A stretch of 64,000 nt of DNA, taken from assembly GCA_026706485.1 (NCBI GenBank), contig JAPOYR010000009.1, positions 62,001 through 126,000 of the forward strand. Reading direction: 5' to 3'. Within the stretch, counting starts at the first letter, position 1. Every line of letters starts with the position of its first letter. The translations under genes and the position numbers were made by a program. The DNA comes from Chloroflexota bacterium. GTDB lineage: Bacteria > Chloroflexota > UBA11872. Below the pieces are notes generated by a model that saw nothing but the letters and a program-made list of their open reading frames with translations, did not search any database and was not told the DNA's origin. This document shows positions 32,825 to 40,178 of this stretch, in pieces.

Positions 32825-33229
32825 ATGGGCGGCGTGCTGGGCTACGGATGCGTCGAGCCCGAGGCGGATGAGCCGGTCTTCCACAGCGGGTGGGAGGGGC
32901 GGGTGTTCGGGCTGGTAATCGCGGTCAAGGACGGCCTCTCGCGCCCGAGACTGGAGAGCCTCGACCCGGGTGAATACCCCTCCGGCTACTACGAGCGGTG
33001 GATGCTCGCCTTGGAGCGCGGGCTCATGGCGCGGGGCGCACTCAGCGCCGAGGAGTTGGACGCAACGACCGACTACTTTCGCAGCAATCCGGCAGCGGGC
33101 CCGACGCGGCGCGTCGACCCGGAGCTGACGGAGCGTGTCCGCCGGGACATGAATCGGCAGCGGGACGTTCGCAAGACGCCGTCACTGGTGACCGGCCGCG
33201 CCGTGGGCCATACTCACGCATCAGCGTGA
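32825..33229 (+). pseudogene. Truncated nitrile hydratase beta subunit
   Basis: Encodes DMGG...[19 protein letters not shown]..., nearly identical to the first ~120 residues of the intact beta subunit at 34485-35153. It is then cut off: after RQRDVRKTP the frame runs into the leader DNA of the second phyH copy and ends 30 bases before its ATG. The C-terminal SH3-like domain that contacts the metal-bearing alpha subunit is missing, and no alpha gene follows. It is a by-product of the tandem duplication. Coding similarity extends upstream of the ATG (ISGIHD before DMGG). Confidence 0.85.
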
Positions 33230-34484: not shown

Positions 34485-35153
34485 ATGGGCGGCGCGCCGG
34501 GCTACGGGCGCGTCGAACCTGAACTGGACGAGCCGGTCTTCCACAGCGAATGGGAGGGCCGGGTGTTCGGGCTGGTAATCGCGGTCAAGGACGGCCTTTC
34601 GCGCCCGAGGCTGGAGAGTCTCGACCCGGACGAGTACCTCTCCGGCTACTACGAGCGGTGGATGCTCGCCTTAGAGCGCGGGCTCATGGCGCGGGGCGCG
34701 CTCAGCGCCGAGGAGTTGGACGCAAAGAGCGACTACTTTCGCCGGAACCCGGGAGCGAGCCCGACGCGGCGCGTCGACCCGGAGCTGACGGAACGTGTTC
34801 GCCAGGGCATGTATCGGCAGCGGGACGTTCGCAGGACGCCCGCACGGGCGCCGGCCTTCGACGTGGGGGATCGCGTGCGAGCCCGCCGAATCCGGCACGG
34901 CGGGCACACCCGCTTGCCCGGATATGCGCAGGGAAAGCGCGGCGTCATTCACGCCGTCTATGCCGCCTACGACCTGCCCGACGACAGCCGAGAGAACGAC
35001 TCCGCTCCGGCACAGCAGCTCTACAGCGTCAGGTTCGAGGGAACCGAGCTCTGGGGAGCGTCGACGGAGCCGGGCACGGCCGTCCACGTCGACATGTGGG
35101 AGGGCTACCTGGAGCCACTGGGCTCGGGCGTCGCTGAAGGTACGGACGCATGA
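34485..35153 (+). CDS. nthB: Nitrile hydratase beta subunit
   Basis: A 222-residue beta subunit. The N-terminal helical domain starts [14 protein letters not shown] and includes [16 protein letters not shown]. The C-terminal SH3-like domain contains [11 protein letters not shown] and [14 protein letters not shown], the family's typical GHTRLPxYxRxxxG motif. Together with the alpha subunit it hydrates nitriles to amides. Family members normally begin MxGIHDMGG; here SGIHD is encoded in frame just before this ATG (34461-34484), but no ATG, GTG or TTG precedes it up to an in-frame TAG at 34443. Translation may therefore start at this internal ATG or at a rare AUC/AUA codon. The stop overlaps the alpha-subunit ATG (ATGA). 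Beta-before-alpha order is usual for cobalt-type enzymes. Confidence 0.92.
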
Positions 35154-35773
35154 GCGGCGACCACGACGTCGATCACCACGCCGAGGCTGAATCGTACGCC
35201 GCGCTCCGCGCCAGGGCGCTGGAGTCGCTGCTGGTCGAAAAGGGCCTGGTGACCACGGACGCCATCGACGAGATCGTGCGGACGTACGAGCAGGACATCG
35301 GCCCGCTGAACGGCGCCAAGGTGGTGGCTCGGGCGTGGGTCGATCCCGACTACAAGCGACGCTTGCTAACGAACGGCACCGAGGCAATCGCCGAGCTCGG
35401 CTTTGGCGGCGCCGAGGGAGCCGAGATCGTGGTGCTGGAGAGCACGCCTGCGGTGCACAACGTCGTCGTGTGCACGCTCTGCTCATGCTACCCCTGGCCG
35501 GTGCTCGGCCTGCCGCCCAGCTGGTACAAGGACGCCGCCTACCGATCCCGCGTAGTCCGCGAGCCTCGCGCGGTGCTCCGTGAATTCGGCCTCACCGTTG
35601 ACGAGTCGAAGGAGATCCGGGTGTGGGACAGCACCGCGTCGCTGCGCTACATGGTGCTGCCGGAGCGGCCCCACGGCACCGCCGACTTGCCGGAGGAAGA
35701 GCTGGCTGAGCTCGTGACGCGCGACTCGATGATCGGCGTGGCACTGGCGCGGTCGAGGTCCGAGGTCGCATAG
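35150..35773 (+). CDS. nthA: Nitrile hydratase alpha subunit, cobalt type
   Basis: A 207-residue alpha subunit. The metal-binding loop is VCTLCSC, residues C108-T-L-C111-S112-C113. Thr at the second position is typical of cobalt enzymes, while iron enzymes have Ser. C111 and C113 are the cysteines normally oxidised to sulfinic and sulfenic acid. It is flanked by the family regions [18 protein letters not shown] and [15 protein letters not shown]. Translationally coupled to the beta gene. No P14K/NhlE-type activator gene follows; instead a fragment of a glycosidase-like gene begins directly at the next base. Confidence 0.95.
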
Positions 35774-35872
35774 ATGCCTGGCTCCATTCGCCGCAGCCCA
35801 TACGGCGACGTGCAGCTTGGCGCGAGAGGATCTTTCGAACACGATGATCTACAGACACCCTTGATCGGATAA
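35774..35872 (+). pseudogene. 5' fragment of a glycosidase-like gene at island edge
   Basis: A 32-codon frame starting immediately after the nthA stop. It encodes [17 protein letters not shown] and then diverges to an unrelated tail and stop. [12 protein letters not shown] is identical to the start of the intact gene at 39123-40178; the matching DNA (36 bases) differs at a few positions, all synonymous. Similarity stops at GGCGCG (about 35824). It is the left-hand copy of a duplicated or replaced gene start bracketing the methyltransferase/nuclease island. Confidence 0.7.
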
Positions 35873-35964
35873 GTAACGACGTCGTAGTCGGCGGCGGCAA
35901 AAAGGGCTAATGCTGATCCCCGCGTATACTGGCCGTGTGCACACAGCCGGTGGGGTGGACTGAA

Positions 35965-36642
35965 ATGCAGGCAAACAGCCAGGGACCCGTCGACGAGAGA
36001 GTTCCGAGCACGCTCGCCAACCACAATTCATTCACACTGCTGGGAGATCTGACCAGATCGGTCAATGGGTCGTTTGGGACGATTCTGGCCGACCCGCCTT
36101 GGAGGTTCAATAATCGAACCGGGCGAGTGGCCCCTGAGTACAGACGGCTACCGAGGTACGCGTCTCTATCAATCTCGGAAATCAAATCCCTCCCGGTCGC
36201 AGATCTTGCTCTCGAGAGAAGCCATCTGTACCTGTGGGTTCCAAATGCGCTCATCCAAGAGGGTCTTGCAGTGATGAAGCACTGGGGATTCGAGTACAAG
36301 ACGAATCTCGTCTGGTATAAGATTCGCAAAGACGGTGGCCCAGACGGTCGCGGGGTTGGATTCTACTTTCGAAATGTCACCGAGCTCGTTCTGTTCGGCG
36401 TCCGGGGGTCTATTCGTACCTTTCAACCCGGACGGAGACAGGTAAACATAATGTCCACTCGGAAACGTGAGCACTCACGAAAACCGGACGAATTGTACGA
36501 CGTTATTGAGCAGTGTAGTCCTGGACCTTATCTTGAGCTTTTTGCGCGGCACGATCGGTCAGGCTGGTCGCAGTGGGGCAATGAACTCAACCGTGAGATA
36601 TTGAATCACGAAATTCGGCCCCAGTCGCGACTTCACTCTTGA
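35965..36642 (+). CDS. MT-A70-family adenine methyltransferase
   Basis: 225 residues from the ATG at 35965; an in-frame GTG at 35935 would add 10. The N-terminal catalytic motif TILADPPWRFNNR has the DPPW (residues 43-46) of N6-adenine methyltransferases of the MT-A70 class. Following regions are RYASLSISEIKSLPVADLA, HLYLWVPNALIQEGLAVMKHWGFEY and the SAM-site-like KPDELYDVIEQCSPGPYLELFAR near the C-terminus, all standard for bacterial MT-A70 enzymes such as M.MunI. In bacteria these usually methylate DNA. The next gene starts 10 bases downstream and encodes a nuclease-DGQHR-HEPN-like protein, which suggests a modification partner. A TATACT at 35925-35930 could be a -10 box. Confidence 0.9.
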   Translation: MQANSQGPVDERVPSTLANHNSFTLLGDLTRSVNGSFGTILADPPWRFNNRTGRVAPEYRRLPRYASLSISEIKSLPVADLALERSHLYLWVPNALIQEGLAVMKHWGFEYKTNLVWYKIRKDGGPDGRGVGFYFRNVTELVLFGVRGSIRTFQPGRRQVNIMSTRKREHSRKPDELYDVIEQCSPGPYLELFARHDRSGWSQWGNELNREILNHEIRPQSRLHS

Positions 36643-36652
36643 GACGGATTCC

Positions 36653-38953
36653 TTGAATTCCGACGCAGAAGATCTCACAGAGGAGCTCCCTGGACTAGTC
36701 ACGGGAGCTGAAATCCAACGGGAGCTCCGAAAGCGTCGCCGTGCGTTCCTTGAGCGGACGGTTCCGGCTGCGCAAGAAGACTGCTATATCGCTGAAGGCT
36801 GGCAGATTGTCCGGCGTAACAAACGAACTATTCGGATTCGCAAGCCAAAACCTCAAGGTCAGATGCTTGAAGATGAAGTGTGGACTCTCCTTGCCAGAAT
36901 GGGGTTTCAGCAGTTGAGCGGAGGTCGTCAGTTCAGGATTCCGCTCAGTGGAATGGACCCGACAGTGCCTCCGAAGCAGGTTGACGTGCTGGCGATCGAT
37001 GGTGAGACGGCTGTGGTCGTGGAATGTAAGGCATCGCAGAATAGCCGCGCGAGATCGTTGCAAAAGGACCTAAATGAGACGCGCGGATTGCAAGATTCAA
37101 TTCGGCAGTCTATTCACGACTGGTTTCCGGATCGTCCTAGGGTTTGCTTCTTATATGTAACAAGGAATATAAGGTGGAGCAGAAATGATGTCGAGCGGGC
37201 AAAAGCGCACCATATATCTACGATAACTGACAGGCAGCTTGACTACTATTCTAGGCTAGTTAATATTATCGGTCCCGCATCAAGGCATCAGCTTCAAGCA
37301 GACCTTTTGCAGGACTCGCCTGTCCAGGGTTTGCGGGGTACCGTACCTGCTCTTCGGGGGACTTTCGGCGGCAAGACGTTTTATCAGTTCGCGATCGAAC
37401 CGGACCGCCTATTGAAGCTATGCTACGTGAGTCACCGTGCAAAGATCGATGCTGCTGCTGTCGGTACCTATCAGCGTCTATTGCGCAAGAAACGGCTAAG
37501 GGATATTGCTGGCCACATCAATCAAACCGGCGGGATATTCCCGACCAATATCGTTGTGAATTTTCGGCACTCGAGGCGTTTGCGCTTTGATATCGCGGGT
37601 CCAACATCGGATGAGCCCACAACGTTGGGCACTCTACATTTGCCGAATACATACAAATGCGCCTGGGTAATCGACGGTCAGCACCGATTGTACGGCTTCT
37701 CGCTTAGCGAGTGGGGACGCCGTGGCCGTGTGCCAGTGCTAGCCTTCGAAGGCCTCGATCCTTTGGAAGAGGTGAAATTGTTTGTCGACATCAATAGTAA
37801 ACAGGTGAGAGTGCCGAGAAGTTTGCTTGTCGAATTGGAGCCGGAACTTACGACCGAGGACTCCTCGCCGGAAGTGATGTTGCGTAGCCTCCAATCTCAG
37901 ATCGCTCTTGATTTGTCGGAGAATCTGGACTCGCCCTTATTCGATCTCGTCGCCACGGAGTGGGATACCGATGGTAAGACCAGGCCCCTCACTCTGCCGG
38001 AGCTCGCAACGGCGATAAGCGGCAGTCGCTTGGTGGGGCAGGTCCGGGGCGGTGTGTTTTACCCGGGATATCTTTACCAACGCGACTATGACACTACGCG
38101 ATCCCGGGCCTCGGCGACTATTGGAAAGTTCATTCATCTGTTTGGCGAGGGAGCTCCCCAGCAATGGGAGAAAGCTCGATCGGCAGGTGGATTCTTATGT
38201 ACAAATCGAGGTGTGGCGGCGCTGCTTCGGTTATTTCATGCAGCCTTGCAGCATAACGACAGCGGTGCGGAGGGCGCGGGTTTAGGACAGTTATCGGCTG
38301 ACGCATTGGTTGGCTCAGTGAACACGTTGGTAGAGCCGGTTGTGGGGTGGTTTGCTGGCGCCTCGGACGTGGATTTGAACCGATTTAAGGGACACTACGG
38401 AAGCGGTGCAGCGCTGGCCTATGGATTCGAGCTCATGGCAATAGCGCATGAGGCCAATAGTGAGTTCAATCCGTCGGGTCTCGAGGAGCACATTAGGCAG
38501 CATAGCGATCAGGCTTTGGGCTACGCCCGTGAACTCATTGCCGAGATTGAAGATTGCATCAGAATGGTGACTTTCTCTATTCTGAAATCGCAATATGGAA
38601 GTGATGGGAACGACTGGTGGAGATTGGGCGTTCCTCAAGGGGTTCGCGGTAACGCAGCTCAAAAGGCAGAAGTTAGCGAAGAGGGCGGGGAGCCACATCA
38701 GTTTCTAGAACTACTCGACTACAAGAGAATAGCTGAGCTCCCTAGGAATTGGCGGAGCTTTGAATCGTCTTGGACATTTGATCGGTCGGCACGATCCAAG
38801 AGTAAGAGACTAGCCTGGATGGATCGTCTAAATATGATACGAAATCGTGTTTTCCATTCAGGAAGACGAAGTGTTACCAGCGAAGAAATATCGTTTCTCG
38901 AAGATGTGTGGCAGCATGTAGAAACCAAGCGCAAGGATGCGGTGAAGCAGTAA
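36653..38953 (+). CDS. PD-(D/E)xK-like nuclease / DGQHR-domain / HEPN-like fusion
   Basis: A 766-residue protein with a TTG start, preceded by GAGACGGA. Residues about 75-180 show a restriction-endonuclease-like core: VDVLAIDGETAVVVECKAS with D111 and E124-x-K126, followed by a conserved-looking helix with Gln/Asp. At residues 341-345 is DGQHR in WVIDGQHRLYGFS, and FVDINSKQVRVPRSL follows; both are hallmarks of DGQHR/DndB-type proteins, which take part in DNA modification and phage defence. The C-terminus (WMDRLNMIRNRVFHSG) has R730-x4-H735, fitting the R-x4-6-H motif of HEPN domains, often RNases in defence systems. The HEPN and nuclease calls are from motifs only. Together with the upstream MT-A70 methyltransferase it may form a modification-guided defence system. 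I know of no named system with exactly this fusion. Confidence 0.75.
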   Translation: MNSDAEDLTEELPGLVTGAEIQRELRKRRRAFLERTVPAAQEDCYIAEGWQIVRRNKRTIRIRKPKPQGQMLEDEVWTLLARMGFQQLSGGRQFRIPLSGMDPTVPPKQVDVLAIDGETAVVVECKASQNSRARSLQKDLNETRGLQDSIRQSIHDWFPDRPRVCFLYVTRNIRWSRNDVERAKAHHISTITDRQLDYYSRLVNIIGPASRHQLQADLLQDSPVQGLRGTVPALRGTFGGKTFYQFAIEPDRLLKLCYVSHRAKIDAAAVGTYQRLLRKKRLRDIAGHINQTGGIFPTNIVVNFRHSRRLRFDIAGPTSDEPTTLGTLHLPNTYKCAWVIDGQHRLYGFSLSEWGRRGRVPVLAFEGLDPLEEVKLFVDINSKQVRVPRSLLVELEPELTTEDSSPEVMLRSLQSQIALDLSENLDSPLFDLVATEWDTDGKTRPLTLPELATAISGSRLVGQVRGGVFYPGYLYQRDYDTTRSRASATIGKFIHLFGEGAPQQWEKARSAGGFLCTNRGVAALLRLFHAALQHNDSGAEGAGLGQLSADALVGSVNTLVEPVVGWFAGASDVDLNRFKGHYGSGAALAYGFELMAIAHEANSEFNPSGLEEHIRQHSDQALGYARELIAEIEDCIRMVTFSILKSQYGSDGNDWWRLGVPQGVRGNAAQKAEVSEEGGEPHQFLELLDYKRIAELPRNWRSFESSWTFDRSARSKSKRLAWMDRLNMIRNRVFHSGRRSVTSEEISFLEDVWQHVETKRKDAVKQ

Positions 38954-39122: not shown

Positions 39123-40178
39123 ATGGCCCAGCGGTCCACCCGCCGCAGTCCCTACGGTGACGTGCAGCTTGGCGCGTTTCGGGAGGTGCTCACCTATCCG
39201 GGCCGCTATCTCAACGACCACTGCCTGATCCGGCATGACGGCCTTTGGCACTTCTTCGGCATCATCGGCGACGTGACCGGTCCGGGCGAGATGCACGGCG
39301 TCGAAGACTCGCTCGCCCACGCCACCTCCGATGACCTGATGCAGTGGACCGTGCATCCGCCGGCGCTCACGGCCACCGGTGTCTGGCCGGAAGAGGTGAC
39401 CTGCTTTGCGCCCTACGTCATCGAGCACGAGGGTTGTTTCTACATGCTCTACTGCGTGACCGATGTGCACCGCACGCAGCGCATCTGCCTCGCCACGTCG
39501 ACTGATCTGTTCAACTGGGAGCGCTTTCCGGGCAATCCCGTCATCGTGCCCTCGGTCTCCTGGGCCAAGTGGCCGGGATTCGGTCTGCCGCGGCCCGACG
39601 AGGTGGAGCGCATGCACCGCGACGCGGGCGGCGACTTCCTCTCCGTCGCCCGCCGCCTCGGCGGCTCCTACGGCGGCTGCCGCGATCCGCACATCATCCG
39701 GCTCGACGACGGGACCTTCGTGGCCTACTGGGTGGCGCGCGTGCAAGAGAAGTTCGGCCACAACCTGGTATGCGTGGCCGCCTCCATGTCGCACGACCTC
39801 ATGCACTGGCAGGAGATTGGGCCGGTGTTCACCATGAAGGCGTGGCCCTTCGACGAGGAGCCCACGCTGGAGGTCGAGTCGCCCTGCGTGGTGCCCAAAG
39901 ACGGCAAGTTCTGGCTCTTCTTCAAGCACGGCTGGTGGACGCATTTCGTCGCCTCCGACTCGCCCTACGACTTCCACGGCTACGAGCCGCAGCGGCTGGG
40001 CTTTTGCCACGCCTCGGAGGTGTTTCATTGGGAGGGCCAGTGGTGGATCACCCACTGCTCCGCCGACCCCGAGGACTTCCGCTACCGCGAGTCCAACCGC
40101 ACTCGCGGCCTGTTCGTGGGACACCTGGACTGGCCTGACGGGGCTCAGCCACGCCTGATCGCGCCCGAGGTTCCTTAG
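39123..40178 (+). CDS. Five-bladed propeller glycosidase-like protein (GH32/43/130-like)
   Basis: 351 residues from [19 protein letters not shown]. Repeated blade-like motifs support a five-bladed propeller: [107 protein letters not shown]. Acidic residues in CRDPHI and in the ESP strand match the positions of catalytic acids in the GH43/GH32 clan. The exact activity is unknown. The start is the ATG at 39123; the frame extends to 39069 in A/T-richer island DNA, where similarity is lost. The leader is not native-looking (no clear Shine-Dalgarno). The 3' end overlaps hisF (convergent) by 4 bases. Confidence 0.8.

Follow-up and report, generated by a model that had tools for sequence, protein, structure and literature searches.

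The stretch of DNA examined here, called the window below, comprises 64,000 nucleotides of contig JAPOYR010000009.1 from a Chloroflexota bacterium (assembly GCA_026706485.1, positions 62,001 to 126,000 of the forward strand). At window positions 35965 to 38953 it carries a cassette of two genes, 10 bases apart and both on the + strand, as an earlier reading of the letters alone (the sequence-only reading) had claimed. The first gene encodes P0001, a DNA N6-adenine methyltransferase of the MT-A70 family, which runs from an ATG at 35965 to 36642 in a frame that opens with GTG at 35935. The second, at 36653 to 38953 with a TTG start, encodes P0002, a predicted 766-residue fusion of a PD-(D/E)XK nuclease, a DGQHR/ParB-like domain and a HEPN domain, with full-length homologues 29-67% identical. 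The DNA, described earlier as A/T-rich, is so relative to its host (53-58% G+C at 36-40 kb against ~67-70% nearby), not in absolute terms.

P0001 matches Pfam MT-A70 over residues 47-217 with an E-value of 1e-28 (100.8 bits against a cut-off of 23.9) and contains DPPW. The nuclease region of P0002 covers residues 67-223 (36851..37321, with the fold match at residues 68-204) and contains a catalytic-type aspartate, D111 (36983..36985), and the ExK element E124-C125-K126 (37022..37030). The DGQHR core, of a DndB/ParB-like type associated with nucleoside triphosphatases (NTPases), spans residues 231-400 (37343..37852), with the DGQHR motif itself at residues 341-345 (37673..37687). The HEPN domain occupies residues 620-766 (38510..38950) and holds the RNase-type motif R730-x4-H735 (38840..38857). 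All these elements are on the + strand, and the motifs fall at the residues named in the sequence-only reading. DPPW and DGQHR are no chance matches. The D..ExK and R-x4-H patterns alone are weak, because they occur in 85% and 26% of shuffled-sequence trials, respectively; it is their conservation in homologues that makes both real. In an alignment of 89 full-length sequences, 88 share D111, 84 share E124, 89 share C125 and 64 share K126; the DGQHR motif is invariant (89/89), and R730 and H735 are each found in 88.

Profile searches and structural models agree on this three-part make-up. The middle of P0002 matches TIGR03187 DGQHR at 1e-38 (133.7 bits against a cut-off of 58.9) and Pfam DndB PF14072 at 7e-12, and the N-terminus matches the Hjc profile weakly (E 0.004). 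Among 63 relatives, DGQHR is matched in all 63, Card1_endonuc in nine (best E 3e-6), Hjc in seven (best E 1e-4) and HEPN_Swt1 in 11. An AlphaFold2 model of P0002 built from these 63 sequences reached a predicted local distance difference test score (pLDDT) of 88.2 and a predicted template modelling score of 0.71, and a separate model of the C-terminal 215 residues a pLDDT of 92.7. The fold assignments rest on re-inspection of Foldseek's list with VIA-align. Residues 68-204 superpose on PD-(D/E)XK enzymes, best on AF1548 (1y88; Z 12.5, root-mean-square deviation 2.4, 119 residues aligned), followed by Can2, Cdn1, FokI and Nt.BspD6I at Z 10-11. Residues 236-385 superpose on ParB-type CTPases (6sdk with CDP, Z 9.0; PadC, 8.7; Noc, 8.6). 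In the full-length model, residues 620-765 align with the HEPN domain of Csm6 (Z 6.2), and the top matches of the C-terminal model are mainly HEPN proteins: Csm6' (8.4), AF_0298 (8.0), AbiF (7.9), Csm6 (7.2) and Swt1-CTD (6.7), with HepT also among them. The HEPN assignment draws on the combination of a run of HEPN names, Pfam Swt1-like matches and the R-x4-H motif. The sequence-only reading had staked itself beforehand on such folds, and the predicted structures of P0002 do contain restriction endonuclease (REase), ParB-like and HEPN folds. A sequence search of the PDB returned no match for P0002 and nothing meaningful for the A2 profile. The PADLOC model PDC-M34B matches only part of the protein, at its C-terminus (E 6.5e-5 in P0002; below 1e-3 in 25/63 relatives), and no PADLOC model covers the whole of it.

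The pairing of the two genes can be judged from a wider survey. With P0002 alone as query, neither genome contigs nor viral contigs gave matches, and the alignment A1 was required. Loci were collected by an alignment-guided scan with the effector, that is the fusion protein, only (the best 80 of 152 candidates), so that pairing with a methyltransferase was not selected for, and neighbouring genes were clustered without prior choice of families. The effector family spans many bacterial and several archaeal groups, plasmids and viral contigs. An adenine methyltransferase lies beside the fusion in 61 of 87 distinct loci, 54 of the D12 class and seven of MT-A70, bearing out the expectation that homologues would co-occur with a DNA methyltransferase. 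The remaining loci have a radical-SAM protein and/or GHKL ATPase (21/87), a second DGQHR protein alone (2) or nothing (3, on short contigs). The adenine methyltransferase gene is nearly always adjacent to the fusion gene, in an order that varies among loci (upstream, downstream or convergent). Same-strand D12 genes lie downstream of the effector in 43 cases and upstream in 15, counts that still include near-copies, and mostly overlap it or are separated by ≤30 base pairs. At two loci (L003 346-1302, and also L085), a protein that by eye looks like an Mrr-like restriction endonuclease, 318 residues long in L003, is encoded on the opposite strand beside the D12-fusion pair.

The methyltransferase class has been exchanged several times between effectors. 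On a tree of 84 effectors, built by a quick method under LG+G4, the MT-A70 label changes four times, and all four changes are forced by well-supported branches. Close effectors differ in their partner: the MT-A70-linked effector of L050 is 66% identical to the D12-linked one of L057, and that of L072 (MT-A70) is 69-70% identical to those of L059, L051 and L069 (D12). One effector lineage therefore accepts two unrelated adenine methyltransferases.

Both partners resemble enzymes that act on sites with a GATC core. The sequence-only reading had compared P0001 with M.MunI, but the closest characterised enzyme we found is M.Nph3I (RGATCY), with 66% identity over 187 residues. The D12 partner profile matches DpnM at 3e-87 and Dam at 3e-63. 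In Dam structures, K9, R124, P134 and Y138 have a role in reading GATC. Equivalents of R124 and P134 are kept in 49/49 D12 partners and that of K9 in 39 (Arg in eight). M.Nph3I, from Nitratiruptor phage NrS-3, makes RG(6mA)TCY in vitro, and its partner R.Nph3I is blocked by that mark (PMC10734518); in an Acinetobacter system of BglII/BstYI type, the N6-methyladenine (m6A) mark is likewise in RGATCY, and the system is blocked by Dam methylation (PMC10287943). From these resemblances, the mark of P0001 is predicted to be m6A in RGATCY/GATC. The fusion would then check whether GATC-core sites carry m6A; its flanking requirement may differ.

The subfamily of P0001 extends beyond the fusion. Identity stays at or above 62% in plasmids and then falls to ~40%. 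Members adjoin PF09195 BglII-fold endonucleases in eight Chloroflexota loci (3e-24 to 4e-46), and at least seven loci on plasmids or phages likewise place a relative of P0001 next to such an endonuclease. The idea of a single MT-A70 lineage travelling with the fusion was rejected: the MT-A70 tree mixes fusion-linked and BglII-linked members, and ~65% identity is usual within the subfamily. No BglII-fold gene was found in the host or its cassette-bearing sister, with G077 and G093 as positive controls, which leaves P0001 without another evident restriction partner. Two weak matches aside, no D12 gene was found in the host genome. In the host's family, a second, more divergent BglII-fold gene lies beside the MT-A70/BglII pair (G077:C5:10575-11000 and G093:C8:23722-24117). 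In four actinobacterial plasmids (L152, L157, L159 and L160), the MT-A70 subfamily stands beside an AAA-family ATPase of ~550-600 residues, in some together with a large hypothetical protein; these loci are perhaps a further restriction type with the same mark.

A different neighbourhood is seen in a clade of 17 loci (L010 7896-16424, L011 4323-14711), in which the fusion is accompanied by a radical-SAM protein and by GHKL (HATPase_c_3) ATPases, one or two per locus. A short DGQHR protein resembling DpdB is often present too, and one plasmid adds PIN_8. By eye, the N-terminal region of the radical-SAM protein looks B12-binding. The D..ExK site is intact in 51/58 methyltransferase-linked effectors, as against 2/20 radical-SAM/HATPase-linked ones, in which the lysine is mainly replaced by threonine (ECT). 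The R-x4-H motif is retained in both sets and is intact in 82/83 effectors. Since the radical-SAM set is mostly this one clade, the contrast reflects largely a single event. Possibly, the radical-SAM/GHKL-ATPase set is an undescribed DNA-mark system.

Given the observed domain make-up, conservation, pairing, partner exchange and likeness of both partners to GATC-core enzymes, we regard it as fairly probable that the two genes form a restriction-modification-like defence cassette, in which m6A at GATC-core sites is tested by the fusion. The methyltransferase, whose family is clear, would methylate adenine N6 at host sites with a GATC core, RGATCY being the probable one here. The DGQHR/ParB-like domain, judged by its fold and motif, would bind DNA and a nucleoside triphosphate (NTP) and read the methylation of the site. 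Unmarked DNA would license the PD-(D/E)XK domain, with its recognisable active site, to nick or cut. The HEPN domain, with its fold and R-x4-H motif, would come into play as the second effector and cut RNA, so that the cell slows down or dies once DNA cutting fails to stop the invader. The sequence-only reading had proposed this same division of labour, with the methyltransferase marking self DNA, the fusion restricting unmarked DNA and HEPN acting as a last step, and we infer it as well. The NTPase-type domain of the fusion argues against NTP-independent cutting of the type II kind. Type IV cleavage, directed at methylated DNA, is unlikely because the adjacent methyltransferase would expose the host. 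Fusions of HEPN domains recur among restriction subunits but not among modification subunits (PMC3710099), a pattern with which the HEPN domain on the presumed restriction component here agrees.

Several observations weigh against this reading. The Z values of the HEPN matches (5-8.4) are modest by the standard of helical domains, and Foldseek gave no match under E 1e-3 for either the full-length or the C-terminal model. The GATC target of the D12 partners is read from family resemblance; most of them have Lys where Dam has Y138, so the outer part of their target site may differ. The 21 radical-SAM loci free of an adenine methyltransferase mostly have a degenerate nuclease site, so nuclease action is not its sole conserved function. 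The context of defence islands is weak: the enrichment proposed as a check by the sequence-only reading is only faintly seen, with most copies among ordinary genes and a few defence-type neighbours (DRT UG20, PDC-S41, IetA, mads and a type I methyltransferase, among 124 proteins of 15 loci counted with no control). A co-directional methyltransferase is also compatible with a modification complex or a regulator, and for DndB, the best studied protein of the DGQHR type, the reported role is that of an ATP-dependent repressor (PMC4507180, PMC10853773).

One rival reading, along the lines claimed for DndB, has the fusion assist or regulate the modification enzyme, with nuclease and HEPN domains as safety devices and a role that is epigenetic, not restrictive. 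DndB and DpdB, both DGQHR proteins, act in or regulate modification (PMC4507180, PMC10853773, PMC12839542), and the nuclease site is lost in most radical-SAM-linked effectors. However, the intact D..ExK in 51/58 methyltransferase-linked effectors and the near-invariant HEPN motif favour effector activities, and unrelated methyltransferases beside one effector family are unexpected for an intimate enzyme subunit; we consider a regulatory role improbable. Still less credence is given to an abortive HEPN toxin guarded by methylation, in which the REase domain contributes DNA binding only and all effector action falls to the HEPN RNase. It would account for R730 and H735 being kept in 88/89 sequences against 64/89 for K126, and for the HEPN domain persisting even with a degenerate nuclease site, but the majority of effectors, those linked to a methyltransferase, conserve D111 and E124 almost to the same degree as the HEPN residues, and we hold such a toxin to be very improbable. 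A possibility that we hold to be unlikely, although the least so of the three, follows SspE, a DGQQR-type NTPase-nuclease that requires phosphorothioate marks of the host (PMC9646914, PMC13251355). Here, the m6A mark of the host would recruit and stimulate the fusion and drive NTP hydrolysis, releasing an activated nickase against unmarked phage DNA, and loss of the mark would silence the system rather than cause self-cleavage. The DGQHR domain and the fusion of NTPase and nuclease are analogous to SspE. However, SspE has DUF262 and HNH rather than a DndB-type domain and PD-(D/E)XK, and there is no sign here of m6A stimulation, which sequence data cannot distinguish from classical mark protection.

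The cassette is an insertion. Of five other genomes of the genus compared with the window's host (G000), four have the site uninterrupted (G042, G051, G101 and G125), and the fifth, G141, carries the cassette as well. In both carriers, the cassette lies directly upstream of a glycoside-hydrolase-like gene, with a partial 5' copy of that gene on its left. In the window, this gives an imperfect direct repeat of 42 base pairs, 88% identical, with the left copy at 35783..35824 (+ strand), a remnant of the downstream gene's 5' start that the insertion left in place, and the right copy at 39135..39176 (+ strand), within the intact 5' end of that gene. The corresponding repeat of G141 is 111 base pairs long and 86% identical (L115 2043-2153 and 5361-5471). 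The repeat pair flanks the cassette in both genomes, and no recombinase gene is encoded within the cassette. Among loci of the family, mobile contexts include plasmids and viral (IMG/VR) contigs. Comparison of G000 with G141 gives 93% identity for the downstream gene, 87% for the methyltransferase and 67% for the effector, which makes the effector the fastest-changing part of the cassette; within it, the DGQHR core (86%) is followed by the nuclease region (71%) and the HEPN region (61%). Elsewhere in the window, inspection by eye suggests two nitrile-hydratase-beta-like copies, the first truncated, around a phytanoyl-CoA-dioxygenase-like gene (32825-33229, 34485-35153 and 35150-35773), the second copy being followed by an alpha-like subunit with CTLCSC. 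ARAGORN also lists a tRNA-like gene at 142-223, whose two-base anticodon it leaves undetermined.

If the preferred reading is true, a single chain would unite a methylation-paired nuclease, an NTP-driven mark reader like DndB or SspE and a HEPN RNase with a suicidal role. The repeated exchange of unrelated methyltransferases with a probable common GATC core leads to a concrete prediction, namely that GATC m6A is the self mark. More tentatively, and with confidence that stays short of even, we propose a widespread, unnamed class of prokaryotic immunity, in which an REase-DGQHR NTPase-HEPN family reads a self mark and triggers DNA cutting, then RNA cutting. The marking enzyme would be interchangeable: enzymes like Dam/DpnM and those of the MT-A70 family would have converged on m6A in a GATC core, and one clade would use radical-SAM/GHKL-ATPase genes, perhaps for a new mark. 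The effector family has so far been known merely as 'DGQHR domain-containing protein'; its study helps to decide the general role of DGQHR domains, including those of DndB and DpdB, and its radical-SAM clade hints at a possible further DNA mark.

A literature search of open-access papers, in which many journals are lacking, found no paper on the gene pair and no named system, none joining DGQHR with MT-A70 and none naming PDC-M34; DGQHR itself occurs in only six of 5.39 million papers. An earlier sighting of the fusion family is probably Saro_3948 of Novosphingobium aromaticivorans, a HEPN (Swt1-like)-ParB fusion listed by Anantharaman et al. 2013 (PMC3710099), although that listing mentions neither a nuclease domain nor a paired methyltransferase nor GATC; plasmid pNL1 of this species carries a family member (L010/L100).

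Among known systems, the type II restriction-modification system Nph3I (M.Nph3I with the BglII-fold R.Nph3I) and its BglII/BstYI-family relatives share the MT-A70 subfamily, the predicted RG(6mA)TCY mark and the arrangement of two adjacent genes. Their restriction partner, however, is a BglII-fold enzyme of ~200-290 residues, in place of a 766-residue REase-DGQHR-HEPN fusion. DpnII/Dam-type GATC systems are similarly close through the commonest partner, D12, which is nearest to DpnM, but their restriction component is made up differently (DpnII/MboI type). Dnd and Dpd have a homologous DGQHR domain (TIGR03187, PF14072) in DndB and DpdB. P0002 scores far under both equivalog cut-offs (DndB, 17 bits against 328; DpdB, 72.4 against 300), no DndCDE genes were recognised beside the cassette, and the present fusion differs by its added nuclease and HEPN domains and by an adenine methyltransferase as partner. 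In SspABCD-SspE, GmrSD and BrxU, a DGQ[QH]R domain of NTPase type and a DNA nuclease are likewise coupled within one chain, in a mark-dependent manner, and the DGQQR of GmrS was linked with DGQHR by Machnicka et al. (PMC4619093). These proteins consist of DUF262 and HNH/DUF1524, for neither of which (DUF262, DUF1524) the 63 members give a Pfam match, whereas the chain described here combines DndB-type and PD-(D/E)XK domains with an extra HEPN domain and is paired with an adenine methyltransferase, where the others have phosphorothioation genes or no partner. With its sequence of mark recognition, NTP hydrolysis and nuclease activation, SspE is the nearest mechanistic model (PMC9646914, PMC13251355). 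Set beside these systems, the cassette looks like a member of a widespread, undescribed restriction system that follows a restriction-modification-like logic with an unusual three-domain effector.

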